The notes beneath the pieces are model-generated. The model did no database searches and was not told where the DNA came from. It was given only the letters and a program-made list of their open reading frames with translations. DNA of 45,413 nt from a virus: IMG/VR virus record IMGVR_UViG_3300028563_000031, positions 1 to 45,413 of that record, one strand, 5' to 3'. This document shows, one piece after another, positions 9,809 through 45,413 of this stretch. Each line of letters begins with the position of its first letter. Position 1 is the first letter of the stretch. Position numbers and translations under genes: made by a program.

Positions 9809-11632
9809 TTAATTATGATTAATTGTTATTGATTTTCCAGCAGCTGTAAATAGCGCATACAAATGGATAATATTAGTGTTACTGTTCCCATTCGTTGGCG
9901 CCGCGTTCGTTCCTGCGTTAATTGTTACGGATAAATTGGCTGTCGGAGGGTGCGCTGTGAAATAAGTATCCAGTGCGGAAAGTAAATTGTTAATGCTGGC
10001 TGTGTTTAGTGCACAATTGCTAAAATTAATATTTGTAAATGACTGATTGATAACCGGCATTGTTAAGGTTGTTAAGCCTGTATTGTTGTAGCCATATAAC
10101 GTACCGCCAAGGTTGCTAATGGTTGATAAATCTAAGGTAGTCAATCCATTTGCATAAACATAATATCGAATAAAGATTGTAGAAGATATTGGGTTTGTAA
10201 TTCCGGTTATTGCAGCAATTCCGGTAACTTCAAAATCAGATAAAACAGTTGCACCACTAATATCAAGAGTTCCGGATAAAGCAAGGGATGTTCCCTGAGC
10301 TAAAAATGTAGTTAATTTAGTTAACCCAGCACTTGATCCATTAATTGTTAAAGCATTTCCAATTAAATATAGAAAGTATAATTGTGGTTTGCTTGCTATT
10401 GATCCTGTAACTGTTAACGAATTACCCACTAATGATAATGCATATAAAGAACTTAATCCAGTAATTGATCCGGAACAAGTCATATTGGCACCAGATATTG
10501 TTAAGCTTTGTACTAAAGTTAAAGTTGATATATCACCTGAAACGGTTAAGGATGCGCCGCTTAAAATAATCGTCGTGGCTTTTGTTAAACCAGCAATTGA
10601 TCCGGAGCATGTCAAACTGGAACCAGTAAGACACAATGTTACAGCATTAACAATATTCGTTATTGAACCAGAAAAATTATAATTGTTTCCACTAATATAT
10701 AAATATGTTAGATTTACTAAACCTGAAATTGATCCTGAAATAGTTGTTGATGGCGTATTATATAATTCTAAAAATGTAAGATTTGAGAAATTATCAATTG
10801 TCCCACTTATTGACATATTGGGACACTCTTGCAAATAAAGTACAGTTAATCCGGTAATACCATTAATTGATCCTGTAAAACTTCCATTTAGACTCCTAAG
10901 TGTTAAAGATGTCAAATTGACTAATCCACTAATTGAACCATTTATTGTACTTGGTGATGCTCCAGCAATTAAAAGATATGTTAAATTAATTAAACCCGTT
11001 ATTGAACCTGAAAAATTAAAACTGGAACCACTCAATGATAAGCTGGTTAAATTGACTAATCCAGTAATTGAGCCTGTGCATAAAATGGAATTTCCATTTA
11101 GTGCCAATGACGTTAAATTAGTAAAATTGGTTAAATCACCTATAACGTTAGAAATGTTATTTATAGATATACTTAAAATCGTTTGGCTTAATTGAGTAAT
11201 ATTTAAATAAGAACATGCAACACTAGAAACAGTAAATTCTAACAGTCCGGTAAAATGTGATACAGAAGTAAAATACCCTAAATCAATATTTGATGATGAC
11301 GTTTCAAAATGCAATACAGAATCTAAGTCGCCAGTTATTGTTATGGTATAAGTTTGATTTTTACCTGCATAATTAGAAGTATATGCGGTATTTGATGTAG
11401 CTGTTACCGGAGTAATTGTACCATTACCCCAATTAATATAAGCGGTTTTGCCAACTGCCATACGCAACGTAATAGCAGATTGAACATTTGATGCGCCCTG
11501 GATGGAATACAAAGTCGGATTAATATTCCTGGATGGAAAATAATAAAATGGTCTTAACACTCTCCTTTTTGGAAATGCATCAAGGCCGCTTTGCAGCTTA
11601 TTTTCAGGAAAGCCAAATAATCCGTTATTCAT
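9809..11632 (-). CDS. Leucine-rich-repeat tail appendage protein, 607 aa
   Basis: An extended repetitive protein. After about 60 residues there is a PKD/BspA-like strand region (INWGNGTITPV ... YTITITGDLDSVLHF). From about residue 150 to 520 come roughly fifteen LRR-like repeats of about 23-24 residues with the pattern GSITGLVNLTSLSLSGSSF. The C-terminal 55 residues form a separate cap with HPPTANLSVTI. LRR solenoids present large binding surfaces, and in Bacteroidota BspA-like LRRs mediate adhesion; here receptor recognition is inferred. It lies between a virion jelly-roll-like gene and two small fibre-associated genes. Repeats make it prone to length change by recombination. Confidence 0.8.
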   Translation of the reverse strand: MNNGLFGFPENKLQSGLDAFPKRRVLRPFYYFPSRNINPTLYSIQGASNVQSAITLRMAVGKTAYINWGNGTITPVTATSNTAYTSNYAGKNQTYTITITGDLDSVLHFETSSSNIDLGYFTSVSHFTGLLEFTVSSVACSYLNITQLSQTILSISINNISNVIGDLTNFTNLTSLALNGNSILCTGSITGLVNLTSLSLSGSSFNFSGSITGLINLTYLLIAGASPSTINGSISGLVNLTSLTLRSLNGSFTGSINGITGLTVLYLQECPNMSISGTIDNFSNLTFLELYNTPSTTISGSISGLVNLTYLYISGNNYNFSGSITNIVNAVTLCLTGSSLTCSGSIAGLTKATTIILSGASLTVSGDISTLTLVQSLTISGANMTCSGSITGLSSLYALSLVGNSLTVTGSIASKPQLYFLYLIGNALTINGSSAGLTKLTTFLAQGTSLALSGTLDISGATVLSDFEVTGIAAITGITNPISSTIFIRYYVYANGLTTLDLSTISNLGGTLYGYNNTGLTTLTMPVINQSFTNINFSNCALNTASINNLLSALDTYFTAHPPTANLSVTINAGTNAAPTNGNSNTNIIHLYALFTAAGKSITINHN

Positions 11633-17688: not shown

Positions 17689-20600
17689 TTATGATTTTGT
17701 TACATCAGCTTGTTGAGCTTCCCAACGCGGCTTAACGATGGTTTCAAAAGTATGCATATTGAAATCAGTTTTAATGCCTTTATCTAAGTGATCATTAAAT
17801 TTATTTAAGGCAGCTGTATGTGCGGAAAGTAATATCAAAAACTGGTCATTTCCATTGTTGCGACCAGGAATACCTTGTGATCCTGAACCTGTTTGTGAGG
17901 ATGTATACCCGCCATTTGCAAAGCCCCTATTAACATTTTGTGCCGCTAAAATTGCAGGTAAATTAATGGTATGGATAGTACCTGAGCGCTGGGCAATATC
18001 AATTATATCGAGTACCGGTTTAACGGTTGGGTTACTAACACCATCAGCATTAGCAACAAATTCGTTTGCGTGAACAATTCCTACGGGTTTATCATTCGAT
18101 GAATCAGTATCGGTAAAACCGCCGGTTTTTAAAGCTTTTACCTGTTGACGTTGGGCATTTGCCTGGGCAACTTCAACGCCTCCCAAAACACCTAGCAGAA
18201 CTGCTGAAACTGTTCCTCCAATCGGTCCTAACTGTGCATATCCGGCCATGATTGCTACAGCAGTATTTGCAAGGATTTGCGCTATTTTAACAGCAAAATC
18301 AATATCGGCATATTTCTTCTTAATGCTTTTCTCTTCCTCTTCCTGTTTTGTTGCAATTTCAGTCTTTGTTTTATTATATTCAGTATCGGAAACTATTCCT
18401 TTTTTGTGATTTTCTTCCAGGTCATTAAGGTCTTTTTGATATTTTGTTGTATTATTTGTGATTGCAACATCCTGTAACCCGGTTTCAATATTTGACATTG
18501 TGTTTAATAACGTCACATATTTTTGAACGTACTGCTGTGCATATTTGAGTTTTATAGCCAATAAGGCAGCTTGAAATTTATCCTCATTCCCTTTGAATGC
18601 ATCGTGTTTTGCATTTAATGCAGCAATCTCATCATTTTCTTGTTCTACAAGGCTTTTTAAATTATATTCTTTTACAGTTAATTCATATTCCTTTATTAAA
18701 TCATCCTGTTGTTTAACGGTATCTTTTGTAATTGATACTTTTAAAGCATCAATCTCTTTTTCAGTTGCAACTGTTGATAAACCAAAAGCTTTTTCAATTT
18801 GTAATGTGGTCTGCAACTGCCCCATTTTCATCGTAAGGATATCTTCATTATACTTTTGCTCGATATCCTTGCGGGCGGTTAAGTTATTACCAGCATTGAT
18901 AAGATCTTGCTTATATTGATCTGTGCGGGCATCAATTAATTGTTGTCCGCTTTCGATGTCCATTTGTATAACATCTTGAGCATTGCTTTCTAAATCCTTT
19001 TGATTTTTTGCAGCGGCATCGTAGGCAATTTTATTCAGATTGGCGGCATGGGAGGCTTCCAGAATTTCGAGGGTAGCCTTTTGTTCCTTGGTAAGGTTTG
19101 TTTGGTCAATATTAAATAACCCGGCTTTTTGTAACCGGTCATTATATTCCTGATTCTCAATATCAATAACTGATGTAGCCGATTGAAGGATGGTATTTAT
19201 ATATTCCTGTTGTTTTACTTTAAAATCCAATAATTTACCATTGATATCGGTTATCTTTTTCTCGATATCGGAATACTGGGTTTTATCGTTTACAAAATTT
19301 TCCTTGTTTTTTGCATAGATGGCAGCTTCGGAGCGTAAACGACTTTGGTTGATAATATCCATTTGCATTGCAAATTGCGCATTGGAAGATTGTCCGTCAG
19401 CGTAACGCTTCTTTTCTTTTGCTTCTAACTGGGTATAGTAGTTTGCGCTTTGGTTTAATTCGGTATCGAGGGTTTCCTTACGCAATGCAACTTCATTTTT
19501 ACTATTCATTGCATTAATTTTCTTCAAATTTTCCTTACCCGAAACAGCGGCATCGGTTAGTTTTACCAAAGATTTTGCATAATCTTCGATCATAACGTCA
19601 GATCCTAAACCAAATTTTTTTAAATTTTCTGCATAGGCAACTATTTTAGGATTATATGAAGCTAATTCGGCATCCATGGCTTTTAACTTTGCCACTTCAG
19701 CATCGTTGGTAACAGGAACAGCAACTCCGGATGACATGGCCATGGCGTTTAAACTTTGCATGGCTTTTTCGTAAGTATTGCGTTTTTCTAGTAATTTATT
19801 ATAATCTTCACCCGCCAGGCGTTCCTTTTCGCTATTGAAAGTAATAATATCTTTTATTTCATCTTCGCTTAGTTTTGTTCGGCTTTTCAATTGCAACAAC
19901 TGGGCATCATATTCCTGCTGTGCAACATCAACCCTTTCCTTAACCATTTTTTTCTCGTTTTCAATACGTGCCTTACCAGCCTCTAAGCGTTCAGTCAGAG
20001 ATTTTGTGCGGTCACGCATATCTTCTTCGAGTTGCACATTTTTTGCATGTTCGGCAGCTTCGTTTATAGACAGTGCAATAGTTTTTTCCTTTACCTGGTC
20101 CATCATTTCAGCATATTGATAACCAACTGCAATGGCTTCGGATAAATTGTCAATGAAATTATGCCAATCGCCAGAAACCATGGTTTTATAAAAATATTGT
20201 AAGCCTGATTGCATTCCGGCAACGGCAAAATTGTATTGATCTCCACTGGTTTTAGTGGATTCAACCATTTCGTGAAAATTCTCTTTGAACAGTTCAATGC
20301 CTTTTTTGCCAAGTTCTACCAGGCCAACGCCGGTGAAGATTTCTTTGAGATGAGAGAAGGCGCCGCCGGATTGTTCAGTAGCGCCTTTTAATTCTTTTTG
20401 TCTTGCTGTAACGTCGTCGAGTTCTTTTTTGTAGGATTTAAATGTGTCGGAATCGGGAGCGAGGTTTGCTAAAATAAATTTCAATTCCTTGCTGCGCTGT
20501 CCAAGTTCTTTCATGGTAAGTCCATCCAGGCCGATTTCGTGCCGGATGTCTTCCATTTGTTTTTCGAGGGATTTGAGGGAATCCATTTTAGTAGCCTTTT

Positions 20601-20730
20601 CAAACTCATCCTTGGTACTTTTTATTTCTTTCTTAAGATCTGAAGCTTGTTTGCTTAATTCGGCAAGTTTTAACCGCTGTGGATCGCTGTTAATTAAAAG
20701 ATCGAGTTGTATTTTATCAATTGTAAGCAT
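17689..20730 (-). CDS. Tail tape measure protein, 1013 aa
   Basis: The longest late gene before the lysis region. Residues 1-115 and about 215-640 are long coiled coils rich in Lys, Glu and Gln. A glycine-alanine hydrophobic region at about 800-850 (IAQILANTAVAIMAGYAQLGPIGG) is the membrane-active segment typical of tape measures. The C-terminus is Gly/Ser/Thr-rich and ends with a polar tail. At about 1.5 angstrom per residue this length predicts a tail near 150 nm. It follows the 153-aa gene with a 1-nt gap. The protein sets tail length and is ejected with the DNA. Confidence 0.93.
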   Translation of the reverse strand: MLTIDKIQLDLLINSDPQRLKLAELSKQASDLKKEIKSTKDEFEKATKMDSLKSLEKQMEDIRHEIGLDGLTMKELGQRSKELKFILANLAPDSDTFKSYKKELDDVTARQKELKGATEQSGGAFSHLKEIFTGVGLVELGKKGIELFKENFHEMVESTKTSGDQYNFAVAGMQSGLQYFYKTMVSGDWHNFIDNLSEAIAVGYQYAEMMDQVKEKTIALSINEAAEHAKNVQLEEDMRDRTKSLTERLEAGKARIENEKKMVKERVDVAQQEYDAQLLQLKSRTKLSEDEIKDIITFNSEKERLAGEDYNKLLEKRNTYEKAMQSLNAMAMSSGVAVPVTNDAEVAKLKAMDAELASYNPKIVAYAENLKKFGLGSDVMIEDYAKSLVKLTDAAVSGKENLKKINAMNSKNEVALRKETLDTELNQSANYYTQLEAKEKKRYADGQSSNAQFAMQMDIINQSRLRSEAAIYAKNKENFVNDKTQYSDIEKKITDINGKLLDFKVKQQEYINTILQSATSVIDIENQEYNDRLQKAGLFNIDQTNLTKEQKATLEILEASHAANLNKIAYDAAAKNQKDLESNAQDVIQMDIESGQQLIDARTDQYKQDLINAGNNLTARKDIEQKYNEDILTMKMGQLQTTLQIEKAFGLSTVATEKEIDALKVSITKDTVKQQDDLIKEYELTVKEYNLKSLVEQENDEIAALNAKHDAFKGNEDKFQAALLAIKLKYAQQYVQKYVTLLNTMSNIETGLQDVAITNNTTKYQKDLNDLEENHKKGIVSDTEYNKTKTEIATKQEEEEKSIKKKYADIDFAVKIAQILANTAVAIMAGYAQLGPIGGTVSAVLLGVLGGVEVAQANAQRQQVKALKTGGFTDTDSSNDKPVGIVHANEFVANADGVSNPTVKPVLDIIDIAQRSGTIHTINLPAILAAQNVNRGFANGGYTSSQTGSGSQGIPGRNNGNDQFLILLSAHTAALNKFNDHLDKGIKTDFNMHTFETIVKPRWEAQQADVTKS

Positions 20731-23655: not shown

Positions 23656-25215
23656 TCAATTGATATTATTTTGTATGCGATTTTGTGGCGAAGTATCTTG
23701 CTGGCGTTCCGGAGCAAAGCGTTTAAACCCAATTTTTACGTTGTTGGTTACCAGACGGGGAAAATTGAGCCAAAGGGCACGATTTAAATCTTCCAGAATA
23801 AATTCTTCAGCATAACCCAGGGTGTCTAAATAAACCAGGTATGAATAATAAACTTGAGCTCCGGAATTAAAAACCCCTTCGTTGCTTAAATTTGAGATAG
23901 CCGGATCAAGACCTTTCCCGGCAACAATCATTCTTGTGCTTTCCTTGTTAAAATCAATAACTGATTTAATAAATTCGGAATACTTAACCGGTATATCCTC
24001 GAACGTCCATTTTTCAATCCCATGTTCAGTTAAAAATGAACGGCTCCAATATGCTTTACCTTGATTTTTACCAGCTCCGGAAAGCACTGCAGTAACCATC
24101 TCAATTTTTTTATTAATGACTGCAGTCAAAAGTTCATAAGAGAAGTCGGTGCCAATTTCCTTAACCCCTTCAAATTCGGTTTGCAAAGGTTTACCTGCAG
24201 TTTTGCGGGCTTCATTATCCCTGCAAATGTTCTTGAGGGTTTCTTCAATTTGTTTTATCCAGGCATCTGGAATAATTACATGAATCTTGGCCGAAAGTGA
24301 ATTTTCGAGGTAAGAATTTATGTATTTCGGATTAAGGTTAGTGCCTTTAATCCATTCCTTTAATCCATAAAAGTAAGTTGGGGTGCTGTAAATATCCTCG
24401 TCGAATGAACGATCACGGACATAGTTAACCGATGAAGGATAACGAAAAGGATCGGAACGGACGAAACGAGGCCATTGGTCGAGATCGTACATGTTAAGTT
24501 TAGTCCAGTCACCAACCAATACAATATCAAGGTCGGAATCTAGGATCCGGGCGCGCCTGTCAATTGTTTTTGTGGTACCCAAACGACAATGGGCGCCGTT
24601 TAAATATTTTAATCCGCGAACAGGCATGGAACCATTAACCCGGCGTGATTTGTTAAAAAAATATTGGTTATAACCATCCTCCATATAATAATATTCATGA
24701 ATGGCCTGTTTAGCATAAGTATGCAAAGGTTCTAAATCAGGATCCCGATCCCACGAGTTTAACCAGGCCCATACTTCAGGATATGTTTTCTTTGATACCC
24801 ATCTACGGATTTTTCCGTCTGATGGCTGGGTACTTGCTCCAGGAGTGATGTCTTCAATATCATCAATATATAATTCTGGACCACGGCCATACATCATACG
24901 TGCTTGTTTTGCAAGTATTTCTGGTAAAAAGGGATTATATTTTACATATTGTTTAGCTTCGTTCGGCAGGTAATTATTATTTCCATTGGTAGCAATTGTA
25001 AAACCCTCAAAATTAATTCGATCTCCAACAACAATGAACCGGTTATAGTTCATTTTTTCTCTTTCCATCTCCCAGGTATCTTCAGATGTCCCAAGCGCAA
25101 ATGTCATATAGGCTTTACCATCCTTGGAAGAATAGCCATAAGAACCGTAATTTTGAACATCAATATTATCACTGGCCGTATTAAAGCCTTTAATTTCTTT
25201 TTTCATATTAATCAT
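23656..25215 (-). CDS. Portal protein, 519 aa
   Basis: The dodecameric DNA entry/exit vertex is predicted here. Length near 500 residues, placement two genes after TerL, and the mixed helical and beta composition with PFLPEILAKQARMMYGRGPELYIDD (wing region) and a long helical C-terminus ending in a disordered Gln/Asn-rich tail (PERQQDTSPQNRIQNNIN) fit portals of Bacteroidota phages. The start at 25215 overlaps the 117-aa gene by 8 nt; ATG 25206, one nt past that gene's stop, is an equally good alternative. Confidence 0.8.
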   Translation of the reverse strand: MINMKKEIKGFNTASDNIDVQNYGSYGYSSKDGKAYMTFALGTSEDTWEMEREKMNYNRFIVVGDRINFEGFTIATNGNNNYLPNEAKQYVKYNPFLPEILAKQARMMYGRGPELYIDDIEDITPGASTQPSDGKIRRWVSKKTYPEVWAWLNSWDRDPDLEPLHTYAKQAIHEYYYMEDGYNQYFFNKSRRVNGSMPVRGLKYLNGAHCRLGTTKTIDRRARILDSDLDIVLVGDWTKLNMYDLDQWPRFVRSDPFRYPSSVNYVRDRSFDEDIYSTPTYFYGLKEWIKGTNLNPKYINSYLENSLSAKIHVIIPDAWIKQIEETLKNICRDNEARKTAGKPLQTEFEGVKEIGTDFSYELLTAVINKKIEMVTAVLSGAGKNQGKAYWSRSFLTEHGIEKWTFEDIPVKYSEFIKSVIDFNKESTRMIVAGKGLDPAISNLSNEGVFNSGAQVYYSYLVYLDTLGYAEEFILEDLNRALWLNFPRLVTNNVKIGFKRFAPERQQDTSPQNRIQNNIN

Positions 25216-25622: not shown

Positions 25623-27557
25623 TTATAAACCAGTAATATGTGCGCTATCCGGAATAGCTTTTGGTTTATATTGTTCACCATATAAACCCCATAATAGGTA
25701 CATTAAAGCTGAAGGTAGTTGCGTAGAAAACCAAACCTGATCTTCATATTCCAGTTTTACTTCGCTGGTTTTGTCAAGTTCAATTCCAAAACCTTTCTCT
25801 CTTTTTAGCGGGCTCATATAAATACAAGAGATTAATTGTTCACACTCATACTGGCAAATTCCTATGCGTGGGGTACGTTTCTCACGTTCACTGAGCAATA
25901 TTTCAAGTAACATAAAATGTTCCCAATAGAATATAGTGCGCTGATCGGAAGGTGTGCAAAGTTCAACCCTCCATCCGAGATCCTCCAGACAACGTTTTAA
26001 AATCGCTATGTCAGTCTTACCTTTTGGGTTATTTGCATATATTTCTTTGCGTTGATTACCGGCACGATCGTAATATATCCGCATGTATTTCTTTTGATGT
26101 GGCCTGAAGAATTCATTTATCTCCAGAGCTAAATCAAAATGTTGCCTGGGAGTCCAGACAAAGAAGTTTTTTAATACTTTGAGGTCATTTCCTTTCTCCT
26201 GGGCGATAACGCAACTCATAAAGTTGCCCGGATCGAATCCCATAAGCAAAGGTTTGCATGTATCGCAGTATTTAAGGTCAGCGCTAGTTCGCTTATATTC
26301 TCCCGCTACGTTTACATCATCAAAACCACCAGGTCCTTTATCATATTTATAACTGTCAGTAAAAATATGTTGCTTTCCAAACCAGGCAAAGAACATTTCT
26401 TTAACCCTGTCAGGCCTTATGCCTAAAATAGACAATAAAAACTTTGAAACGTTACTTTTAGCGCCTTTGAACTGACGTGTAATATAATCATTGCCCAAAA
26501 CAGCCAGATTACTGAAGGATGAACCTTTAATATATGACCATAATCCGGATTCTTCCTTACGTTTTTCGAGTAGAAAAGCCTTCCAACGATTAATAAACCT
26601 TGTTAATCGTAATATTTCGGCCTCCGCAGACTTAATTTTGGTTAATAAACCTGATTTTCTGGCTTCTTCAAGGTCTACTTCAGCATTTAAAAGCTCTCCT
26701 TCAGCTTTTAGAGTACGAAAAGCAATGTATTCAATCAAATCAAGTGCCGATCGGTTAACATTTTCTTCGTAATGCGTCCACCAGTCTTCATCGTTTTCAA
26801 AATTTGGAGTACTTGAGAATCCTGTCATTCCACCGAAATAGTGAGAATGGCCATATATTTCCCTGTCTTCACGTAAAGTTGGAAATACCCGTTCAACAAA
26901 ATCGGTTTCTTTAATGCGTAAAAGTTCGTCAACAAACACATGTACAACGCTTTTACCAATAATACTTTCAGGACGGTCAAGGCTTCCAAATAACAAAACG
27001 GTTCCCCACGCAAATGAAATGGTATGTTTCCATGATCCAACCGGAGTCAACGGCCTTTTAAAATGTTTGGGCGGCTCCTTGCCGTATTCATAATGTATAC
27101 CTCTAGTATAATGCTTACCCAAATATGTAATGATGCCTGGTACAATTGTATCCATGGCAAACGTATAAGTTGGAGCAACCAGCAACATTGTACTCCTGGG
27201 CATATCATAAGTAATGCGAACAATGCGGGGAGCGAACATCTCAGTAGTTTTGCCGGATCCTCGACCAACTTCACCAAGCAAATTTTGAGTGTCTGATAAT
27301 AAAACATGATGCTGAACAACAGTATTATATTTATCAATAAATTCTATATTACTGTTATAAAATCCAGCGACCATGCTCATTGCAAAAACACTCGACCCGG
27401 AGAAGTCAAAAAAACTATCTAAATTTAAGTGAGGAAGTATTGATATGATTAAGGAGAAAGCAACAATGGCGATGAGTAGCAAAGCAAATTTTCTCAGTAA
27501 TTTAAGTCTATAAAGAAAAATATTGCTTTGGCTTCTGGCTAATTGCTTTTTATTCAT
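25623..27557 (-). CDS. terL: Terminase large subunit with an unusual N-terminal membrane-anchor module, 644 aa
   Basis: The ATPase-nuclease that packages DNA. Walker A is GRGSGKTT at 98-105, Walker B is in VVHVFVDELLR around 203-213, and the nuclease acidic residues lie in MGFDPGNFMS (near 415) and MRIYYDRAGN (near 470). Unusually, the first about 70 residues precede the normal start of the domain and contain a basic patch (NKKQLARSQ), a hydrophobic helix at about 23-41 and SFFDFSGSSVFAMSMVAGF. This module recurs at the start of the 337-aa virion protein. A shorter start at M60 or M62 would remove it. It overlaps the upstream gene by 8 nt. Confidence 0.93.
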   Translation of the reverse strand: MNKKQLARSQSNIFLYRLKLLRKFALLLIAIVAFSLIISILPHLNLDSFFDFSGSSVFAMSMVAGFYNSNIEFIDKYNTVVQHHVLLSDTQNLLGEVGRGSGKTTEMFAPRIVRITYDMPRSTMLLVAPTYTFAMDTIVPGIITYLGKHYTRGIHYEYGKEPPKHFKRPLTPVGSWKHTISFAWGTVLLFGSLDRPESIIGKSVVHVFVDELLRIKETDFVERVFPTLREDREIYGHSHYFGGMTGFSSTPNFENDEDWWTHYEENVNRSALDLIEYIAFRTLKAEGELLNAEVDLEEARKSGLLTKIKSAEAEILRLTRFINRWKAFLLEKRKEESGLWSYIKGSSFSNLAVLGNDYITRQFKGAKSNVSKFLLSILGIRPDRVKEMFFAWFGKQHIFTDSYKYDKGPGGFDDVNVAGEYKRTSADLKYCDTCKPLLMGFDPGNFMSCVIAQEKGNDLKVLKNFFVWTPRQHFDLALEINEFFRPHQKKYMRIYYDRAGNQRKEIYANNPKGKTDIAILKRCLEDLGWRVELCTPSDQRTIFYWEHFMLLEILLSEREKRTPRIGICQYECEQLISCIYMSPLKREKGFGIELDKTSEVKLEYEDQVWFSTQLPSALMYLLWGLYGEQYKPKAIPDSAHITGL

Positions 27558-28197
27558 CAGATTCCTCCGTATCTGTAATATTCATACTGAGTGCGGCTTC
27601 TTCTTTTAACTTATCTTTTTGTTCAGTATTGATTGGGTAAGAATCAATGTTTTTGCAGGCATCCTTATATTGTTTTAAACGCTCACCGGCAATACTTTTA
27701 AGGTTGTATTCCTTTTTTCCTCCGAGCATTTTCCATGTTACTTCGGGCGAAAGAACGTGAACAATAGGATGAAGTTTTGTAGTATCAATTTCGTTTTCAT
27801 TAGGATTTTGCCTAAGTCTTGCGGCATCGATAAGACAACGGCGAGCGACTCCAAGGTTATCGGAGACAAGAGCGATATTGCTTAATTCTTCAAGTTTGTC
27901 AGCATAATAATCATTCCAGGCAGAATTCCGGACTGTACTATTGAGATGAAAATAGTTAATTGCCTCCCATATAATTTCACGGGCAGTATTAAAAGCTAAA
28001 TTAAAGTCAGGATATTTTTTAATTAATTCCCTTGCACACCTTGAAACTGAAGGATAACGACGTTGTAATTCAGGTACCCTATCCAATAAAAAGATATAGC
28101 GTTGCAGATCCTCCGCAATAGCATCACTTTTATTCGTAGTTAAAAAGGATTTAACGATATCAGGATGCAAACTTTCGAATCTTTCATGTAAACTCAT
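27550..28197 (-). CDS. Candidate terminase small subunit, 215 aa
   Basis: An all-helical soluble protein whose stop overlaps the TerL start by 8 nt. The region QRRYPSVSRCARELIKKYPDFNLAFNTAREII (about 44-75) reads like a DNA-binding helix-turn-helix as in small terminases, and the C-terminal part is acidic (KEEAALSMNITDTEESDE) as in subunits that contact TerL. No specific family can be named. pac or cos recognition is inferred from position and shape. Confidence 0.68.
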   Translation of the reverse strand: MSLHERFESLHPDIVKSFLTTNKSDAIAEDLQRYIFLLDRVPELQRRYPSVSRCARELIKKYPDFNLAFNTAREIIWEAINYFHLNSTVRNSAWNDYYADKLEELSNIALVSDNLGVARRCLIDAARLRQNPNENEIDTTKLHPIVHVLSPEVTWKMLGGKKEYNLKSIAGERLKQYKDACKNIDSYPINTEQKDKLKEEAALSMNITDTEESDE

Positions 28198-28738: not shown

Positions 28739-29541
28739 TTAAACTAAAGAATAATTCATTGTAAGTACTTCCGTTTTTTTCTTACCGTTTCCGGAGCCTT
28801 TATTGACACTTACTTCCATGTTAAAAGTTTTATTAATCCATTTGTTTCTCTTAGTATATTCAGTAAGTAAATCAGAAGGATAAGAACTTAGTATAAACTT
28901 GCCTTTAACTTCAGATAAAAGTTTTAGAAGGTTTTCAAAATCATCCTTTGAATATCCATCGTAATGGCCACAATCTGAATTATAATAAGGAGGATCACAA
29001 TAAAAAAATGAATCAATACTATCCCTGGAGTTTATAATTCGAAGCGCATCAGTGCATTCAATTTGAACATTCTGCAAACGAATTGCAAAGTCTTCGGTAA
29101 ATGATTCCCGCTTGTTTCTGATCTTCTTTGATGTTGTACATTTTTTGATATCATAACCCCAGGATCCGTCTAGTATTGAACTGAAACTTTGTGCAGCCAA
29201 TGCCCAAACCGCCCATGCTCTTTTAACTTCAGAAAACATGTGCGGATTGTTATAAATAACATCGGCATCTTTGTGCAATCTGCGACTGTGAAGCGAGATC
29301 CTTACTTCCTTCTCCAATCCGACAAAATCGTTCTGGACCACTCGGTAAAAGTTTATTAACTCATTGTTCGTATCGTTTATCACTTCAACCGCTGAAGGAT
29401 CCTTAGCGAAGAAAACGGCTGCTCCTCCAATAAAAGGTTCACAATAAAGTGAGTGTGGAGGAATTAATTCAATAATTCTTGTACATAGTTTTTGTTTTCC
29501 ACCATAATAACTGATTGGTGTTTTGAGGACTTTTTTTTCAT
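28739..29541 (-). CDS. D12-class adenine-N6 DNA methyltransferase (Dam type), start out of frame across an A8 tract
   Basis: Reading upstream of GTG 29383 in the same frame gives VLKTPISYYGGKQKL, then YCEPFIGGAAVFFAK (AdoMet-binding FxGGxA motif), VINDTNNELINFYR, and the catalytic DPPYY in FFYCDPPYYNSD. This is the motif set and order of D12 Dam methyltransferases. The only suitable ATG (29541-29539) is followed by eight A (29538-29531) and is one base out of frame. Nine A would give MKKKVLKTP and a 267-aa protein, the usual Dam length. A product begun at GTG 29383 would lack the cofactor motif. So the gene is phase-OFF, frameshift-dependent, or a homopolymer miscall. Confidence 0.88.
29531..29538 (-). 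repeat. A8 homopolymer after the methyltransferase start codon
   Basis: Eight adenines on the coding strand directly after ATG. One more base restores the frame of a full-length D12 methyltransferase. Such a tract is a typical slipped-strand phase-variation site. Confidence 0.8.
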
Positions 29542-31180: not shown

Positions 31181-32194
31181 CTAATTTCGGGATCCTGCAA
31201 CTTCGACAAATACATATGTTGCACCTCCAAATATTTTAAAGGAAATCTGTTTTCCTGCATTTGCAGTCCAGGTTGCACCACCAATTAGTAAAAATGTAGC
31301 TGAAGCTGCAATTGTACTTGGAAATGCCCCTCCAGATCCTTGAAGTGTAATAATCCTTCCGACATCAGAATCGGATGTTCCTGTTATTGCTGTAATTGCT
31401 TTTGCCGATGTGGCAGCTGTTGTTAATTGATAAACTGGATTAGAGGTAAGCAAAATAGTCGTTGCATCTGCAGCGACGGTTACTGGATCAGCTATTGGCG
31501 TACTACCAACATATTTATTCAGAATATCACCACATTCATTGGCAAAAGTGATTGTTGTGGCTGTTTTGTCTTTATCAGATCCACCATCAAATTTCGTCAT
31601 TCGAAGCGGCTTGCAGGAATTACCACCAATATAATTCTCACTTGTGGCACATATTTGCAAAACAACGTAAAACCCTTTGCCTATTCCAATCTTAAGATAA
31701 TTGAAAATATCTGTTGACATTCCTCCGATAATCAGAGTAATTTCAGTATTTATAACTGCAGCTATTTCACCTTGAGTACCTGACCATTTTAATGAAGGCG
31801 TATCAATAACGGAATCTATATATTTCCATTTTTCGCCCGCTTTTAAAGGAATATTGGCAACTTCGCCATTAATGGCTGCTGGAAATTGTTGTGTATCGTC
31901 CACCTGGGCCTGCTCAATAAACCATAATCGCGCTTTGATCTGCTTACCAATTTTTTGTGTATTATCCGGATCACCGTCAATATTTCCAAATCCACTGACC
32001 ACTCCTGCAGTTATTACACTTCCCGAACCGGCCAGGTCAAAAAAATGATCCATGCTCAAATTACCTGTAATTACTGAGCCAATAACATAAATGGCTAATA
32101 TAACCCCTATCGCAATGGCAAAGTTTTGTATGATTTTCATCCTGGAGCGTAAAACCTTGTTCTGGCTCCAGGCCAATTGTTTTTTATTTTTCAT
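31181..32194 (-). CDS. Mosaic membrane-anchored virion protein, 337 aa
   Basis: Residues 1-71 repeat the terminase N-terminal module: NKKQLAWSQ, a hydrophobic helix at 25-42, then DHFFDLAGSG ... VVSGFGN. Residues about 75-235 are a soluble domain with no family I recognise (KARLWFIEQAQVDD ... FYVVLQICATSENYIGG). Residues about 240-337 (AADATTILLTS ... AITAITGTSDSDVGRIITL ... FVEVAGSRN) match the C-terminal domain of the neighbouring capsid protein. It is flanked by its own terminator on each side. A capsid decoration or tail tube protein is possible; the membrane anchor is odd for either. Confidence 0.78.
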   Translation of the reverse strand: MKNKKQLAWSQNKVLRSRMKIIQNFAIAIGVILAIYVIGSVITGNLSMDHFFDLAGSGSVITAGVVSGFGNIDGDPDNTQKIGKQIKARLWFIEQAQVDDTQQFPAAINGEVANIPLKAGEKWKYIDSVIDTPSLKWSGTQGEIAAVINTEITLIIGGMSTDIFNYLKIGIGKGFYVVLQICATSENYIGGNSCKPLRMTKFDGGSDKDKTATTITFANECGDILNKYVGSTPIADPVTVAADATTILLTSNPVYQLTTAATSAKAITAITGTSDSDVGRIITLQGSGGAFPSTIAASATFLLIGGATWTANAGKQISFKIFGGATYVFVEVAGSRN

Positions 32195-32235
32195 TTACGA
32201 ATTTTTCAGTTGTGAATTTTTATGGATTAAAACTT

Positions 32236-32271
32236 AAAAAAATACCTGGCAATAGGATGCCTATTGCCAGG
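32236..32271 (-). terminator. Rho-independent terminator after the major capsid gene
   Basis: CCTGGCAATAGG and CCTATTGCCAGG form a perfect 12-bp stem with a 3-nt loop, followed on the minus strand by a run of seven T. A strong stop between capsid and the mosaic virion protein would set their relative amounts. Confidence 0.92.
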
Positions 32272-32279
32272 ATTAATGA

Positions 32280-34247
32280 TTATGTAGTTACCTTACGGCC
32301 AACTTCAACAAATTTGTTGTTCGATGCGTCAGTACTGTCGTCTCTGTTTAAATACAGATAAACTTCAAGGTAATCACCTACTGCGGTTGGAATCCATGCA
32401 TCAACCAGTGAAAATTTACCTGATTTTGCCGTTACGGAAGGATATGTTGCGCTTCCGCAGGTTATTCTGTAAACAATTCCTGCAACTGCATTCGTTATAT
32501 CCGTAATGGTGGGTGCCGATACTGCGTTAGCAATAGTTTGGAAAAACATTCCTTTGCTGGCATCACAGGTAGTTGCATTTGCTGCCAGAGCTATTGTAGG
32601 ATCAGTCATGAAAATGTACTGGTTCTGATAATTATCTGCTGTTAATGCAGCCAATGTTGCAAACTTTTTACCAACCATAATAGCATTTACGCCTTCTTTC
32701 CAGTAGCTATAAACCATCAGTTCTTCAAGATCGCGTTGCATTCCAATTTTTGCCATTTCACCGGCTTTATTTTCGATCAACTCAATATTACCTGGCATGG
32801 TAAGCCACATAAAACATAAATTACCCATGTTTGGAACACCCTGAATACTAACATCAGGATAATTCATTATAGTTGATTTATTTCCGGAATAATCCTGTTG
32901 TAATGCATAAGCGGCTCTAAATGCTGCATTGTACCAAGGTAAATGTTTTTCATTAACGTGCAGAACCATACCTTTTAATGAAGGAAGAACTTTATTCACA
33001 TCTTCAACAAAACTTTCAACATAAGTAAGAACAGTACTTTTTGTGTAAGTTGTATAAGCAGTAAAAGGTTGAAGACGGAAATCATTCCATGCCCATTTCA
33101 ACAATTTACGAATAACACCTGTAGAACCGTGCAAATGATGTCCTGCTTTTGTTAAAGTAGGTTCAACCCTGCAACCTAAGATACGGCGTTCATTCCATTC
33201 GTTCATCAGAACTTCAAGAATACGTGCCAACATCCATTCAATCCAGGTCCATTTCATAGGGTCACTGCCTTCACGATTCAGGTAACCAATGTATTCTTTT
33301 TCCAATTCTTTAAGATTTGAAAACTTATGTTTAAACATAAGGTCGAATACTTCAGCTTCGATTGGCTCAACTGATGCGCCACCTTTGAAAACACGGCCTC
33401 CTTGAAAAGATTGAGAGAAACTGGTTAAAAAAGCATTTGTCAATACTTCTTTATTCTGAACTCCATATCTTGTTGGAAAGATACCTGCAATTGAATTCAA
33501 AGTTCGGATATAAGCTATTAACGCATCCTGACGGCGAATAATATATTCTTCACCCCAACCGGTATTATCAAATCCCGTAAAATCAATGTCCTGCATTTTG
33601 ATTGAACCAAGCTTTCCTTCAGCTTGCAATTCACCCATACGGTTAGCCAATGTTTTGGCATAAGAACCAAGTGCTTTTTTAAAATCACTTTCGTACTCTT
33701 CCCAATTACCTTCCATTCCTTTATCAGCTGCAAATACTTCTAAAGGCCTACGGGTTGCAGCAACTATGTTCCAAGGTTTATCCATTGCAAATAAAGGAGC
33801 TTCAATGCCAAAAAGGTACTTTTCGGTAGTTTTACCGCCAGTAATTGGAATAACTTTTCCTTTTGGAACCACTTTTTTAGGTTCAGATGCTTCAGGTTCT
33901 TTTTTCAAAGCTTCAATTGTTTTTTCCTGTTCAACTACTTTTGTTTTAATTTCAATGACAGCCTCTGCAGTCGTTTTTGTTGGTTTTTCATCACCAAAAA
34001 CAGCCTTGATCGTTTCTTTTTGATCATCGGCCAAAGCCTGAATTTCCGTGTCAGTTTTATCACTACCATCGTCAGCGTCTCCGCCTTCCATAATAGCTTT
34101 TAGAACATCAGAAAAACTCATTTTAAGTTCTTCCTGGCATTTAGCCTCAATTTTTGCGAGTTCTTCTTTGGAAAGATCATCACCGCCGGTTTTCATTTTT
34201 GCGGTATATCCCAAAGCCGCAATAATTACTTTAAACTTCTTTTTCAT
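32280..34247 (-). CDS. Major capsid protein with fused N-terminal scaffold, 655 aa
   Basis: Residues 1-135 are acidic, with coiled-coil segments (KVVEQEKTIEALKKEPEASEPKK), and look like a scaffolding/delta domain to be removed by the adjacent protease. The main body (about 140-560) has features of HK97-fold capsid proteins of Bacteroidota phages (YIIRRQDALIAYIRTLNSIAGIFPTRYGVQ, RRILGCRVEPT, MVLHVNEKHLPWYNAAF). Residues about 560-655 form an added beta domain shared with the 337-aa protein. It follows the S49 protease with a 10-nt gap. Cleavage near KKVVPKGKVIPITGG is plausible. Confidence 0.88.
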   Translation of the reverse strand: MKKKFKVIIAALGYTAKMKTGGDDLSKEELAKIEAKCQEELKMSFSDVLKAIMEGGDADDGSDKTDTEIQALADDQKETIKAVFGDEKPTKTTAEAVIEIKTKVVEQEKTIEALKKEPEASEPKKVVPKGKVIPITGGKTTEKYLFGIEAPLFAMDKPWNIVAATRRPLEVFAADKGMEGNWEEYESDFKKALGSYAKTLANRMGELQAEGKLGSIKMQDIDFTGFDNTGWGEEYIIRRQDALIAYIRTLNSIAGIFPTRYGVQNKEVLTNAFLTSFSQSFQGGRVFKGGASVEPIEAEVFDLMFKHKFSNLKELEKEYIGYLNREGSDPMKWTWIEWMLARILEVLMNEWNERRILGCRVEPTLTKAGHHLHGSTGVIRKLLKWAWNDFRLQPFTAYTTYTKSTVLTYVESFVEDVNKVLPSLKGMVLHVNEKHLPWYNAAFRAAYALQQDYSGNKSTIMNYPDVSIQGVPNMGNLCFMWLTMPGNIELIENKAGEMAKIGMQRDLEELMVYSYWKEGVNAIMVGKKFATLAALTADNYQNQYIFMTDPTIALAANATTCDASKGMFFQTIANAVSAPTITDITNAVAGIVYRITCGSATYPSVTAKSGKFSLVDAWIPTAVGDYLEVYLYLNRDDSTDASNNKFVEVGRKVTT

Positions 34248-34257
34248 ATTGATTGAT

Positions 34258-35148
34258 TTAAGAATTAAATAATGATTTTATTTGTTGATTTTGAGCCTTA
34301 TTAAAGGCAAGTTGTATAATTTCATCGAATGGCATTACATTATCAATGAGGCCATTCATTTTTGCATTTATTTCGCCATAATTGGCAAAAAAGGTGCGCC
34401 CATTAAGCGTTCCTTCAACTGCGGGGTTAACGTTTGGCCGGTTAGTCTTAACTGTTTCCTGAAAATGAGTAGCCCATGGAGTGAGTTCTTCACTGATCAA
34501 TAATTCGGGGTTTCCTTTTTGGGCTTCAGTAATGGCTTTGTTTTTCCAATTGCTTTCGGGAGGTGTAACACGAATGAGTTTAATACCCATTTGTTTGTAC
34601 ATTTCATCATAGTTTGGAATATCGGCCATTACACCAATACTACCTACCTGGCACATTGGATCAATAGCGTTGATACTATCAAAGAATGAAGAGATGTAAT
34701 AAGCTGAACTCATGTCAATATTATCCACTGCAGCCAGGCATGGTTTGTTTTTCTTTGCCATGATCGCTTTCATTGGAAATATTGAATCAACTGTTCCACC
34801 AGGAGAGTTAACACGTGCCACAATTGCTTTGATGGCATCATTTTCAAATGCATCCTCGAACATGGCAGCAATATCTTCAGTGCCATAATCCCACCATGAT
34901 CCGGAACGAGTCAAAACTCCAGAAATGGGAATAACAGCAACGCCTTCCATTTCCTTGTCATCATCATTATTGCAGGGGTTGAGCATGTCATCGAAAATGC
35001 TCATTTTTAAAACAGGCTTATCAGGCAAGGTAAGAACCTGACCTTTGCTGATTGCTAATAAATAAGGATAGTATTTTACCATTGCTTCTGGAGTGACCAA
35101 AAGCGTACTGGTAAAAATTTCATCGAAGAATTTGGAATATTTCTGCAT
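34258..35148 (-). CDS. S49-family (SppA/protease C-like) prohead protease, 296 aa
   Basis: A ClpP/crotonase-fold serine protease. VNSPGG at 113-118 gives the oxyanion strand, MSSAYYISS at 146-154 contains the nucleophile Ser (S148), and GSIGVMADIPNY at 169-180 is the conserved loop; a Lys near 198-200 would complete the dyad. It precedes the scaffold-capsid fusion directly, as head-maturation proteases do. Its start codon lies 3 nt from the foot of a 15-bp perfect hairpin, and a GTCCTTTA element overlaps the other foot, so translation of the head operon may be controlled there. Confidence 0.9.
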   Translation of the reverse strand: MQKYSKFFDEIFTSTLLVTPEAMVKYYPYLLAISKGQVLTLPDKPVLKMSIFDDMLNPCNNDDDKEMEGVAVIPISGVLTRSGSWWDYGTEDIAAMFEDAFENDAIKAIVARVNSPGGTVDSIFPMKAIMAKKNKPCLAAVDNIDMSSAYYISSFFDSINAIDPMCQVGSIGVMADIPNYDEMYKQMGIKLIRVTPPESNWKNKAITEAQKGNPELLISEELTPWATHFQETVKTNRPNVNPAVEGTLNGRTFFANYGEINAKMNGLIDNVMPFDEIIQLAFNKAQNQQIKSLFNS

Positions 35149-35235: not shown

Positions 35236-35622
35236 TTAAAATAAAAAATCAGTTGATTGACGTAAAAAAGTGTATTTAGTTTCTGATATTTTACGGGAGT
35301 TTGCAGAATAAACTACTGGATTATCCAGACTGCCCCAAATGGCTATTTGACCATCAGAAGTGCGTAATCTGAATATTTGCGGTTGTCTGGTTAGGTCAGT
35401 ATTAGTTAAAGGATTAATATTGCCATTAACAGCCAGTTTCTCATCTATCAGTAAACCGGCAGGTGTATTTTTAGCATCTTGAGTAAAAGTTGCAGGCATT
35501 ATATTTTCAATTTCACTAAATGAAAATCCTGGATAAAATGTTACAACCTGATCAGTAATATCTTTAACTGCGCTAAAGTTCACTCTTTCAATTTTATCAC
35601 ATAAATAAATTGTTGTGTTCAT
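35236..35622 (-). CDS. Hypothetical beta-rich protein, 128 aa
   Basis: A small soluble protein (MNTTIYLCDKIERVNF ... LTRQPQIFRLRTSDGQIAIWGSLDNPVVYSANSRKI) with alternating strands. No signal peptide or known motif is seen. It lies just upstream of the head operon, separated by a 87-nt leader with hairpin. A virion or assembly role is possible; otherwise unknown. Confidence 0.65.
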   Translation of the reverse strand: MNTTIYLCDKIERVNFSAVKDITDQVVTFYPGFSFSEIENIMPATFTQDAKNTPAGLLIDEKLAVNGNINPLTNTDLTRQPQIFRLRTSDGQIAIWGSLDNPVVYSANSRKISETKYTFLRQSTDFLF

Positions 35623-37471: not shown

Positions 37472-37777
37472 TCATGTAAATTTAAATCTCTCATTATCTT
37501 TAACTATAGTAGTCGTAAATGGAAATCCTTCATCCGGTATCTGTTGAATTACCTCAATTAAACCTCCTGCTGAAGTAAAAACGATGTGCTTTTCATTATC
37601 AACAGAGATCTGAAGCTGCAAACATTTACCGCTTCCACGTTCCTTGAAACATTTAGAGTCATCAATTTTGAAATGATATACCACGATTTCGCGGTTTAGG
37701 ATCTTCGACATTTTAATTTTATCACCTTCGTATCCTTTTGAGGGTTCTTTAATTTTAAACTGACTAAAATTATTCAT
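37472..37777 (-). CDS. Small beta-rich protein coupled to the DGR reverse transcriptase, 101 aa
   Basis: Its start overlaps the reverse transcriptase stop by 8 nt, so it is translated with it. The sequence alternates strands (REIVVYHFKIDDS, KCLQLQISVDNEKHIVFTS, PFTTTIVKDNERFKF) with SKCFKERGSGKCLQLQI, consistent with a small beta-barrel (OB-like) protein. It is not the usual helical Avd accessory protein of DGRs by composition. It could replace Avd as an RNA- or DNA-binding partner; this is speculation from coupling. Confidence 0.7.
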   Translation of the reverse strand: MNNFSQFKIKEPSKGYEGDKIKMSKILNREIVVYHFKIDDSKCFKERGSGKCLQLQISVDNEKHIVFTSAGGLIEVIQQIPDEGFPFTTTIVKDNERFKFT

Positions 37778-38723
37778 GTAATAACTTCTTTAATAAATGT
37801 ATACTATTACAATGACTAGCCCAGCCATTGTATGATGCTATGGATTGTTTATTCTTATTGTTTACCAACATCCTGGCAAAGTTCTGTTTAATGCTTTTCC
37901 TTAAAAGAGTATGTGTATGATGGAAAACGTAACCTACAAAATCAATTCCCCTGGCCTTTACCGGAAAGATTTGATAATTATCCTTTATTTGCAGTTTAAG
38001 CCTTTCATTCATATATATTTTTATGTCTGCAAGCAATTTGTGTAAGTACGGTTTGCTATTCGATAAAATAACCAGGTCATCAGCATATCTGAAGTAATAT
38101 TGTACATGCTTTTCTTCTTTCATCCAGTGATCAAAATATGACAAATAGAAATTTGCGAAATATTGGCTGAGATAATTGCCAATGGGTAATCCATCAGTGC
38201 TGTCAATAATTTCATCAAGGAGCCATAATAGATCCAGGTCTTTAAACTTTCGGCGAAGCAATTGCTTCAAAATATTATGATTTATGTTCGGATAGAACTT
38301 TTTAATGTCGAGTTTCATACAATATTGCGTTGCATCTTTATCTTTTAATGCATTTTTAACTGCATTAGCGCAAGCGTGAATTCCCCTTTTTTTAATACAA
38401 CTATAAGTATCGGCGGTAAATGTTGATACAAAAATAGGTTCAAGTATATGCATAATTGCATGGTGAGTGATGCGATCAGGAAAATATGGCAACCTGAATA
38501 TAATCCTTTCTTTTGGTTCGTGTATTGTAAAGGTTGTATAATCAGAAGTTTTGTAAGTTTTATTTATAAGCATTTCGTGAAGCTTCACTATGTTTTCATC
38601 CCTGTTTTTATCGTGTTCAATTATACCAGGTTGTTTTGATTTCCCTTTTCGGGCAATAATATCAGCCAATTGAATATTTTCAATGCTGCAGATCTGTTCG
38701 TATAAATTATTAATCCTTTTCAT
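37770..38723 (-). CDS. Diversity-generating retroelement reverse transcriptase, 317 aa
   Basis: Motifs occur in RT order: KERIIFRLPYFPDRITHHAI (71-90), YCMKLDIKKFYPNI (134-147, catalytic D139), DGLPIGNYLSQYFANFYL (177-194), and FRYADDLVIL (211-220, catalytic D215/D216), then GIDFVGYVF. IGNYLSQ, in place of the QGxxxSP of retroviral enzymes, is the DGR signature in motif 4. No integrase or maturase domain is present. It is transcribed after the two target genes and the 82-nt template 101 bp upstream. It would copy the template RNA with errors at adenines and write the cDNA into the variable repeats. Confidence 0.97.
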   Translation of the reverse strand: MKRINNLYEQICSIENIQLADIIARKGKSKQPGIIEHDKNRDENIVKLHEMLINKTYKTSDYTTFTIHEPKERIIFRLPYFPDRITHHAIMHILEPIFVSTFTADTYSCIKKRGIHACANAVKNALKDKDATQYCMKLDIKKFYPNINHNILKQLLRRKFKDLDLLWLLDEIIDSTDGLPIGNYLSQYFANFYLSYFDHWMKEEKHVQYYFRYADDLVILSNSKPYLHKLLADIKIYMNERLKLQIKDNYQIFPVKARGIDFVGYVFHHTHTLLRKSIKQNFARMLVNNKNKQSIASYNGWASHCNSIHLLKKLLHE

Positions 38724-38824
38724 TTGCCTTTGCTTTTAAAAGATCGCATTCCCCGAAAGTACCAGCGCTCTTTATGGTAATGTTATTTTTTGCCATGCGG
38801 GCAAGGTTTATGTTGCAAATATTC

Positions 38825-38906
38825 GCATAGGTGAGAACTGACGTTCGTATTCGTGTTCGTATAGTTGTAATTCGAATTCGACAAAACGAACCTGGAACCG
38901 GAAGAC
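38825..38906 (-). ncRNA. DGR template repeat (TR), 82 nt
   Basis: Read on the minus strand it encodes SSGSRFVLSNSNYNYTNTNTN. It has 21 adenines, six AAY codons among them. Compared with VR1 it differs at 13 positions and with VR2 at 15; every difference is at a template adenine, and all 61 non-adenine bases are identical in all three. It lies between the first target gene and the reverse transcriptase. Confidence 0.97.
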
Positions 38907-38942
38907 ACTAGCAGCTCTGGCAACATACAACCTTAATATCAA

Positions 38943-39356
38943 TTAAAAAAAATAGTCCTGGTATTCGGCCTTAAACTGCTTTGCAATGTATAATGACTTT
39001 TCAGATGTATCAGTGCAAAGGCGAGAACCGACGTACGTAAACGCGATCGTATAGTCGTAACCCGAATCCGACAAAACGAACCCGGAACCGGAAGACTTAA
39101 CTTCATACCATGGATAGTATTTATATTGATTCCAATCGGTATAATCAGCAATCCATCCATTGTTAATTGCCTGAAAGATGATCATCAGTTTATAAGCATT
39201 AATTATTGCTTTTCTTAAACCTTCAGGTAACATGGATACATCTGGAAGTTTTTCAGGATCCACATTTTCTTTTTTACAGGCGTCTTCAAAGCTTTTAATC
39301 ATTTTAAAATTGAACTCGACCGTCTTTTTAACTGTTTTTTTTGCTTTAGTTTCCAT
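38943..39356 (-). CDS. DGR target protein 1, 137 aa
   Basis: A small soluble protein with no signal peptide or membrane helix. The N-terminus is Lys-rich, and a helical part follows to about residue 70. Then comes the conserved frame YYPWYEVKSSGSGFVLS, the variable region, and VGSRLC followed by a helix (SEKSLYIAKQFKAEYQDYFF). I know this PW.. GSGF .. VGSRLCF pattern from short Bacteroidota phage proteins. Template-encoded NSNYNYTNTNTNVSSH is here DSGYDYTIAFTYVGSR, so most template Asn codons have been changed. It is 17 nt after target 2 and precedes the template. Confidence 0.92.
   Translation of the reverse strand: METKAKKTVKKTVEFNFKMIKSFEDACKKENVDPEKLPDVSMLPEGLRKAIINAYKLMIIFQAINNGWIADYTDWNQYKYYPWYEVKSSGSGFVLSDSGYDYTIAFTYVGSRLCTDTSEKSLYIAKQFKAEYQDYFF
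39015..39096 (-). repeat. DGR variable repeat 1 (VR1), 82 nt
   Basis: Aligned without gaps to TR 38825-38906 (constant offset 190). Thirteen of 21 template adenines are substituted (to G or T), with no other change. It ends 23 codons before the gene end. Confidence 0.97.
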
Positions 39357-39373: not shown

Positions 39374-39829
39374 TTATAAAAAATAGTTGTAAAGATCAAT
39401 GAATTGCTGTGCTACGTAGTTTGATTTTTCTTCGCTTTCAAAGCAAAGGCGAGAACCGACGTACGTAAACGCGTACGTACAGTCGGAATCCGAAGACGAC
39501 AAAACGAACCCGGAACCGGAAGACTTTGTAAATACCGGGAACCATTTGGGTTGATTAGGATTGTTAAAGTCTGGAACAAAATTGCCATTTACTGCACTGA
39601 TAACTACTTTTAATTTTTTATAGGCAATTTCATCAGGCGTATCAGAAGAATTGAAAACGATATCTTCCGGTTTAATGCCTTTAAATACACAGGCATCTTC
39701 TAAAGTTTTAATGTCCTCAAAACTTTGTTTATTGAAGGTTTTCTCTCCAAATTCTGAAACCAATTGTTCTTTGAACCAATCAGGTGAATCAGAATAGATC
39801 CTTTTTGCAACTGTTTTTGTTATTTCCAT
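39374..39829 (-). CDS. DGR target protein 2, 151 aa
   Basis: A paralogue of target 1. The N-terminal 80 residues diverge, but KWFPVFTKSSGSGFVLS, the variable region and VGSRLCFESEEKSNYVAQQFIDLYNYFL align directly. The variable residues are SSDSDCTYAFTYVGSR against the template NSNYNYTNTNTNVSSH. No signal peptide is seen. One template therefore serves two different scaffolds. It lies 36 nt after the membrane zinc-finger gene. Ligand-binding diversification is the known DGR purpose; what this protein binds is unknown. Confidence 0.92.
   Translation of the reverse strand: MEITKTVAKRIYSDSPDWFKEQLVSEFGEKTFNKQSFEDIKTLEDACVFKGIKPEDIVFNSSDTPDEIAYKKLKVVISAVNGNFVPDFNNPNQPKWFPVFTKSSGSGFVLSSSDSDCTYAFTYVGSRLCFESEEKSNYVAQQFIDLYNYFL
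39443..39524 (-). repeat. DGR variable repeat 2 (VR2), 82 nt
   Basis: Aligned without gaps to TR; 15 of 21 template adenines are substituted (to G, T or C), nothing else. VR1 and VR2 differ from each other at 7 positions, all template adenines and all in the 5' two-thirds, while the last 30 nt are identical. Confidence 0.97.
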
Positions 39830-45191: not shown

Positions 45192-45413
45192 TTAGTCTTT
45201 AAGATTGTTAACATATTCCTTTAATTCCCTGCGATATTCAATTCGTTCCGTTTCTTCCATTTCCTGTAATTCGTCATATAATTGGGAATCGAAAATTTCC
45301 AGGATTGCATCTTCAAGCAAACGCATTAATCGTTCAGGCCTGACGGCATCAAGTTCGACTTGTCCTAATCCATCCCATTTGGCAGTCCTGGAATCGGTTT
45401 TTTTAGCTGGCGC
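45192..45413 (-). CDS. Topoisomerase VI subunit A-like TOPRIM protein (N-terminus cut by the window edge)
   Basis: This is the C-terminal part of the gene described at 1-784. It enters at the window end, repeats bases 1-127 of the window, and ends with QLYDELQEMEETERIEYRRELKEY and a stop at 45194-45192. The residues after the repeat form a charged helix. Joined at the circle the protein is 292 residues and has no internal stop. Confidence 0.85.
   Translation of the reverse strand, partial: APAKKTDSRTAKWDGLGQVELDAVRPERLMRLLEDAILEIFDSQLYDELQEMEETERIEYRRELKEYVNNLKD
45287..45413. repeat. Direct terminal repeat, copy 2 (circular-assembly overlap)
   Basis: Identical to bases 1-127. It shows that the contig closes into a circle. 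Confidence 0.93.

Follow-up and report, generated by a model that had tools for sequence, protein, structure and literature searches.

What is the protein encoded directly after the major capsid protein (MCP) gene of this phage? We call it X. Its beginning resembles that of the large terminase subunit (TerL) of the same genome and its end resembles that of the MCP. Such a pattern can be read as a recent mosaic of two neighbours, as an earlier note on this DNA proposed. It can also be read the other way around, with one of the neighbours as the recipient. Where do the two ends come from, and what does the protein between them do?

We think it quite probable that X serves a siphophage of Bacteroidota as its major tail-tube protein, displaced to a place beside the capsid gene and fitted with a decoration domain and a leader, and that a copy of this leader was grafted onto TerL. 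The protein would consist of three modules: a conserved core that would form the tail tube, a C-terminal beta domain that would decorate the surface of the tube (domains of this kind occur as decorations on tails and capsids), and a basic-hydrophobic N-terminal leader that appears typical of this family of tail-tube proteins. Its gene would thus follow the capsid gene instead of preceding the tape measure gene. In the lineage of this phage, TerL would have received a leader copy and would now carry the leader of a tail-tube protein. Both homologies, the modularity and the TerL insertion are clear at the level of sequence comparison. A hydrophobic N-terminal helix is unusual for a tail-tube protein, and among the literature matches listed we found nothing on leader-bearing tail-tube proteins or leader-bearing TerL.

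The phage and its structural genes

The window, by which we mean the whole stretch of 45,413 nucleotides that was analysed, begins and ends with the same 127 bases (positions 1-127 and 45287-45413), which suggests that the sequence is complete and circular. Open reading frame (ORF) calls and profile searches identify a tailed phage with its structural genes all on the minus strand (Table 1). TerL matches phrog_2 (E 6.5e-8), and its relatives in the same gene position are annotated as terminase large subunits. The MCP has an N-terminal region, an HK97-type fold at about residues 190-553 and then the appended C-terminal domain. Its structure model (pLDDT 82) finds its matches among encapsulins and capsids of the HK97 fold (VIA Z up to 13.7; Foldseek E 6e-8), and on this model the protein is an HK97-fold major capsid protein.

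Table 1. Positions in the window of X, its modules and the structural genes discussed in the text
Feature	Positions	Strand	Evidence
X, 337 aa, predicted major tail-tube protein with leader and decoration-type C-terminal domain	31181..32194	-	fold model, homologue census
X leader, residues 1-71	31982..32194	-	leader profile, hydropathy
X core, residues 83-232, predicted tail-tube/Hcp-type fold	31499..31948	-	AlphaFold2, VIA-align; conserved in relatives
X C-terminal domain, residues 233-337	31184..31498	-	hhalign, profile matches, structure match
MCP, 655 aa	32280..34247	-	structure model, HK97-type fold
MCP C-terminal domain, residues 546-655	32283..32612	-	hhalign, profile matches, tree
TerL, 644 aa, with grafted leader	25623..27557	-	PHROG terminase match
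TerL grafted leader, residues 1-67	27357..27557	-	missing in L008, L095; synteny break 27547/27350
Putative small terminase; 3' end overlaps TerL start	27550..28197	-	position alone
S49-family prohead protease, adjoins MCP gene	34258..35148	-	PF01343 E 2e-16; phrog_53 head maturation protease E 2e-39
128-aa protein upstream of protease, distant X-core relative	35236..35622	-	hhalign probability 92%, E 6e-7
Tape measure protein	17689..20730	-	phrog_25337 E 6e-14
Portal-type protein	23656-25215	-	named by place relative to annotated relatives

Some other genes of the minus strand deserve mention. A methyltransferase-like ORF (28739-29383) matches a PADLOC type II methyltransferase profile from profile position 55 on; its N-terminal part may sit upstream in a different frame. 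A 607-residue leucine-rich-repeat protein is encoded among the tail genes (9809-11632). Two tail-region proteins (4519-6951 and 12069-14084) have in common a 39-residue stretch (72% identity) that is also matched by several phage tail and head-decoration families. Further on lie a reverse transcriptase gene (37770-38723), a repeat (38784-38908) and two tandem paralogous genes (38943-39356 and 39374-39829). The paralogues are 45% identical, and where their C-terminal repeats depart from the repeat at 38784-38908, it is mostly at adenines of the latter. This group is a likely diversity-generating retroelement, with the repeat at 38784-38908 as its template repeat and the tandem genes as targets that end in variable repeats.

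Two shared ends

Residues 2-68 of TerL and 3-71 of X are 42% identical when the proteins of the window are compared with one another (E 6e-11). Their local alignment score of 125 was reached by none of 5000 shuffles (best 58) and by none of 5000 within-segment shuffles (best 73); 259 other ORFs with a hydrophobic N-terminus gave a best score of 46, against 125 for the X/TerL pair. A profile of the X leaders of other phages, built without the window X, recovered the window X at E 1e-7 and the window TerL about as strongly, at E 1.5e-7. By hydropathy, the X leader has a basic N-terminus, a predicted membrane-type helix spanning roughly residues 25-45 and another hydrophobic stretch that is weaker; the helix scores 2.53 in X and 2.82 in TerL. 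At the DNA level, identity between the two leaders is merely scattered. The two agree at 57% of first, 76% of second and 38% of third codon positions, against 27-29% by chance, which points to conservation at the protein level. We conclude from these comparisons that the N-terminal 70 or so residues of X are homologous to the N-terminus of TerL.

On which protein did the leader originate? The gene immediately behind that of the MCP encodes an X relative in Porphyromonas gingivalis phages (219 aa), Cellulophaga phage Ingeline_1 (273 aa) and the gut contig MT838327.1, and many Bacteroidota phages encode the X core next to the capsid protein. When X itself or its first alignment served as the query, no viral relatives were found. 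The homologues were collected from viral and genome contigs fetched through TerL (one TerL listing comprising the best 80 of 271 relatives), together with the P. gingivalis, gut and Ingeline_1 records. At a core score of at least 80 bits we counted 68 distinct homologues, a count biased to phages with this TerL type because the relatives came through TerL. Leader, core and C-terminal domain are all present in 30; 21 have leader and core, seven core and C-terminal domain, nine the core alone, and one is truncated. Since the core is present in every class, it is the constant part of X. Eight loci that repeat earlier contigs (L087, L096-L101 and L104) were left out of the counts given here and below; among the loci kept, some contigs still occur a second time with other flanks, L115 and L066 being one example. 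Five ORFs of 119-124 residues that match the core profile fall below the cut-off and are not X; they represent the paralogue encoded upstream.

The leader was present on 51 of the 67 untruncated distinct homologues in this collection. The collection also offered 139 TerL ORFs whose N-terminus could be read, among them repeat contigs and two more copies of the window sequence (L002 and L007); here the window's own sequence alone had the leader. When all ORFs were searched with the leader profile (E <0.05), the matches were X proteins, in 59 rows, many of them inevitably so, X leaders having served to build the profile, and the window TerL, in three rows that are one sequence (the window, L002 and L007). 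A hydrophobic N-terminus was flagged in six TerLs. Three of these are again the window sequence; the other three (L090, L017 and L091) gave no leader-profile match. Comparison of these sequences indicates that the leader is at home on X and was added to TerL in the lineage of the window phage.

Two relatives mark where it was added. The TerLs of L008 (80% identical) and L095 (74%) have no leader and begin where the window leader ends. L008 DNA aligns to the window on either side of a gap between 27547 and 27350, and the L008 and window TerL starts have the same GGAGGA and ATGAATAA. This evidence places the insertion of the leader directly behind the native start codon of TerL, in frame, and the ancestral start at about residue 68 of the window TerL. 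The graft is known from one sequence, L007 being an identical contig and not an independent one. No known leader comes closer to that of TerL than the one on the window X (score 125, next 68); at only 42% identity, the donor may have been either the phage's own X or that of a relative. We do not favour misassembly of TerL through a repeat, given the scattered DNA identity, the conservation at the protein level and the in-frame junction, albeit a junction known from a single sequence.

The other end of X tells a different story. As single sequences, X 226-304 and MCP 542-615 are 36% identical (E 0.003). Profile-profile comparison with hhalign aligns X 233-337 with MCP 546-655 at a probability of 95.8% (E 8e-9); seven control pairs gave 0.1-0.4%. 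The X domain profile also matches 34 of 89 MCP-matching ORFs (E up to 0.01), and all 34 matches overlap the region matched by the MCP C-terminal profile. The last 105 or so residues of X are thus, by profile comparison, homologous to the C-terminus of the MCP. In a tree of 28 X and 42 MCP domains the two sets form separate clades with 100/100 support; the sharing is therefore ancient and predates the divergence of these phages. It follows from the tree that X did not recently take its domain from the MCP next to it.

These results bear on the proposal of the earlier note that X was assembled from its neighbours by duplication and fusion. The two similarities it described, X to TerL at one end and X to the capsid protein at the other, are borne out by profile searches, in which both are significant. 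X is also modular, with one module common to TerL and one to the MCP, so the mosaic stands as a description; the direction and age that the note gave it are wrong. A recent fusion of a TerL N-terminus with a capsid C-terminus would have to account for a leader that none of the other TerLs examined has and that X proteins commonly carry, for C-terminal domains in separate clades, and for a conserved tail-tube-like core between the two ends. That both end similarities exist speaks in its favour, and we nevertheless consider it extremely improbable. As for the suggestion that X links the capsid surface to the membrane or the motor, we found no result in support.

What might the C-terminal domain be for? 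Passages of PMC9022992 describe Ig-like decoration domains on both tail-tube and capsid proteins; likewise, one domain type ends both X and the MCP here. The domain differs in that neither X, the MCP nor 47 X homologues gave a Pfam match to the Ig-like families Big_1, Big_2, I-set or FN3, and in structure comparison the X domain comes closest to the C-terminal region of a tailspike from an Acinetobacter phage (24qj, Z 8.8). By analogy, it may play the same architectural part as the Ig-like domains. In the Ingeline_1 capsid protein (L006 6137-8296) there are apparently two tandem copies of it.

The core and the tail tube

The identity of X would lie in its middle 150 or so residues, which the earlier note passed over and which have a predicted tail-tube fold. 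In the AlphaFold2 model of X (mean pLDDT 86), VIA-align places residues 84-235 on tail-tube and Hcp chains: phage 80alpha 6v8i (Z 9.7, rmsd 3.3 over 122 residues), the monocin tube (Z 9.0), SPP1 6yeg (Z 8.9) and lambda chains (Z up to 8.6). Most of the 50 rows listed are tube or Hcp proteins, rows 8 and 18 bearing no tube name. With all Z-scores under 10, the match of this predicted model is moderate. Below E 0.001, Foldseek gave no PDB match and 44 matches in a viral library, mostly unnamed and one of them a major tail protein; a tail tube protein came up at E 1e-3. Pfam, PHROGs and NCBIfam searches with the window X found no match, and phrog_19897, a family without assigned function, was matched by 24 of 47 homologues. 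A sequence search of the PDB yielded weak antibody matches only, which we treat as chance.

Gene content points the same way. The tape measure gene was found among the tail genes scanned, and PHROGs identified no full-length major tail protein there. An 810-residue tail protein that matches phrog_584 ('major tail protein') was discarded as the tail tube; the match covers a shared small module only. From the predicted fold and this gene content we infer a role for X as the major tail-tube protein. Could it instead be a head decoration or head-fibre protein? Its gene directly follows that of the MCP, with which it has a C-terminal domain in common. The core nevertheless aligns to tail-tube and Hcp structures and the tail genes scanned offered no other full-length candidate for the tube, a point tempered by the 128-residue relative of the core, which might be a second tube-type protein. 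We regard a role on the head as very unlikely. The 128-residue protein is conserved upstream of the protease gene.

Comparison with known systems shows what X has in common with them and where it differs. The siphophage tail-tube proteins 80alpha gp53, SPP1 gp17.1 and lambda gpV resemble the X core in structure comparison, and those of lambda and SPP1 have an extra C-terminal domain as X does (described in passages of PMC9022992). X differs from all three in its hydrophobic leader, in the place of its gene beside the capsid gene and in matching no named family by sequence. The P. gingivalis phage protein of 219 residues (for example, BK068113.1, DBA56369.1) follows the MCP gene and has leader and core as X has, but lacks the C-terminal domain; the TerL of this phage, unlike that of the window, has no leader. 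Ingeline1_44 of phage Ingeline_1 (Duneviridae) has the C-terminal domain and the gene position of X but no leader, and the Ingeline_1 MCP, like that of the window, also ends in the C-terminal domain. Ingeline virions are siphoviral by electron microscopy, according to passages of PMC8776804.

What the leader may do

The leader would either anchor its protein in the membrane or be removed before assembly. Across the 51 leader-bearing X proteins the helix has a hydropathy of at least 2.16, the mean charge on its N-terminal side is +6.5 and that of the loop that follows is -1.3, and a second stretch is moderately hydrophobic. Most leaderless homologues start 12-17 residues before the start of the core. 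At the corresponding junction, a hydrophobic motif is conserved in the leader-bearing proteins, and in 37 of the 51 it contains a Met (at -16, with a second Met at -15 in ten of the 37).

These features accommodate several readings. The leader may be a removable pro-sequence, cut from X, and from the window TerL, by the S49 prohead protease or a host peptidase, so that the assembled proteins would resemble the leaderless homologues. Those homologues mostly start at the junction, where the motif is conserved, and the protease gene adjoins that of the MCP. PMC10367356 describes signal peptides on P. gingivalis phage proteins, both capsid proteins and others of unknown function, and proposes prohead protease cleavage of the signal-peptide-like N-termini of the capsid proteins. 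The cleavage site in X is putative, however, and the motif is not invariant, 14 of the 51 having no Met; we hold this reading tentatively, at somewhat less than an even chance. A lasting membrane anchor, either a signal anchor or a hairpin, would hold tube subunits, and in the window phage the motor as well, at the inner membrane. The hydropathy of the helix, the charges on its two sides and the second stretch are what such an anchor would have. Against it, a simple N-in anchor would place the X core and the TerL motor outside the cytoplasm, and the membrane character of the leader is predicted from hydropathy alone. We find it possible and on balance doubtful. A second translation start at the junction could give two forms, one with the leader and a leaderless one for the tube. 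The junction Met sits at the natural start position of the leaderless homologues, and in TerL two Mets, M60 and M62, remain shortly ahead of the ancestral start. We demote this idea to quite unlikely because the DNA that precedes the junction Met lacks the A-rich character of the annotated start regions (for example, A 0.08 at -6, compared with 0.46); the motif, moreover, looks like one conserved at the protein level.

A further speculation, which we consider unlikely, is that the leader serves as a portable address tag that sends the tube subunits of many Bacteroidota siphophages to a site at the inner membrane, the copy on TerL sending the motor there too. If this were true, DNA packaging and tail assembly would be coupled in space in the window phage.

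The assignment of X as a tail-tube protein proposes a function for an unannotated phrog_19897-like family encoded beside the capsid gene in many Bacteroidota phages, and it would bring to light tail-tube-type proteins with a conserved membrane-type leader. The TerL of the window would provide a cleanly placed case in which the leader of a virion protein has moved onto the packaging motor. End pieces of this kind, it appears, can be passed among virion and packaging proteins that are otherwise unrelated. Should the leader be functional, it may offer a direct test of whether these phages assemble their tails, and perhaps package their DNA, at the membrane.
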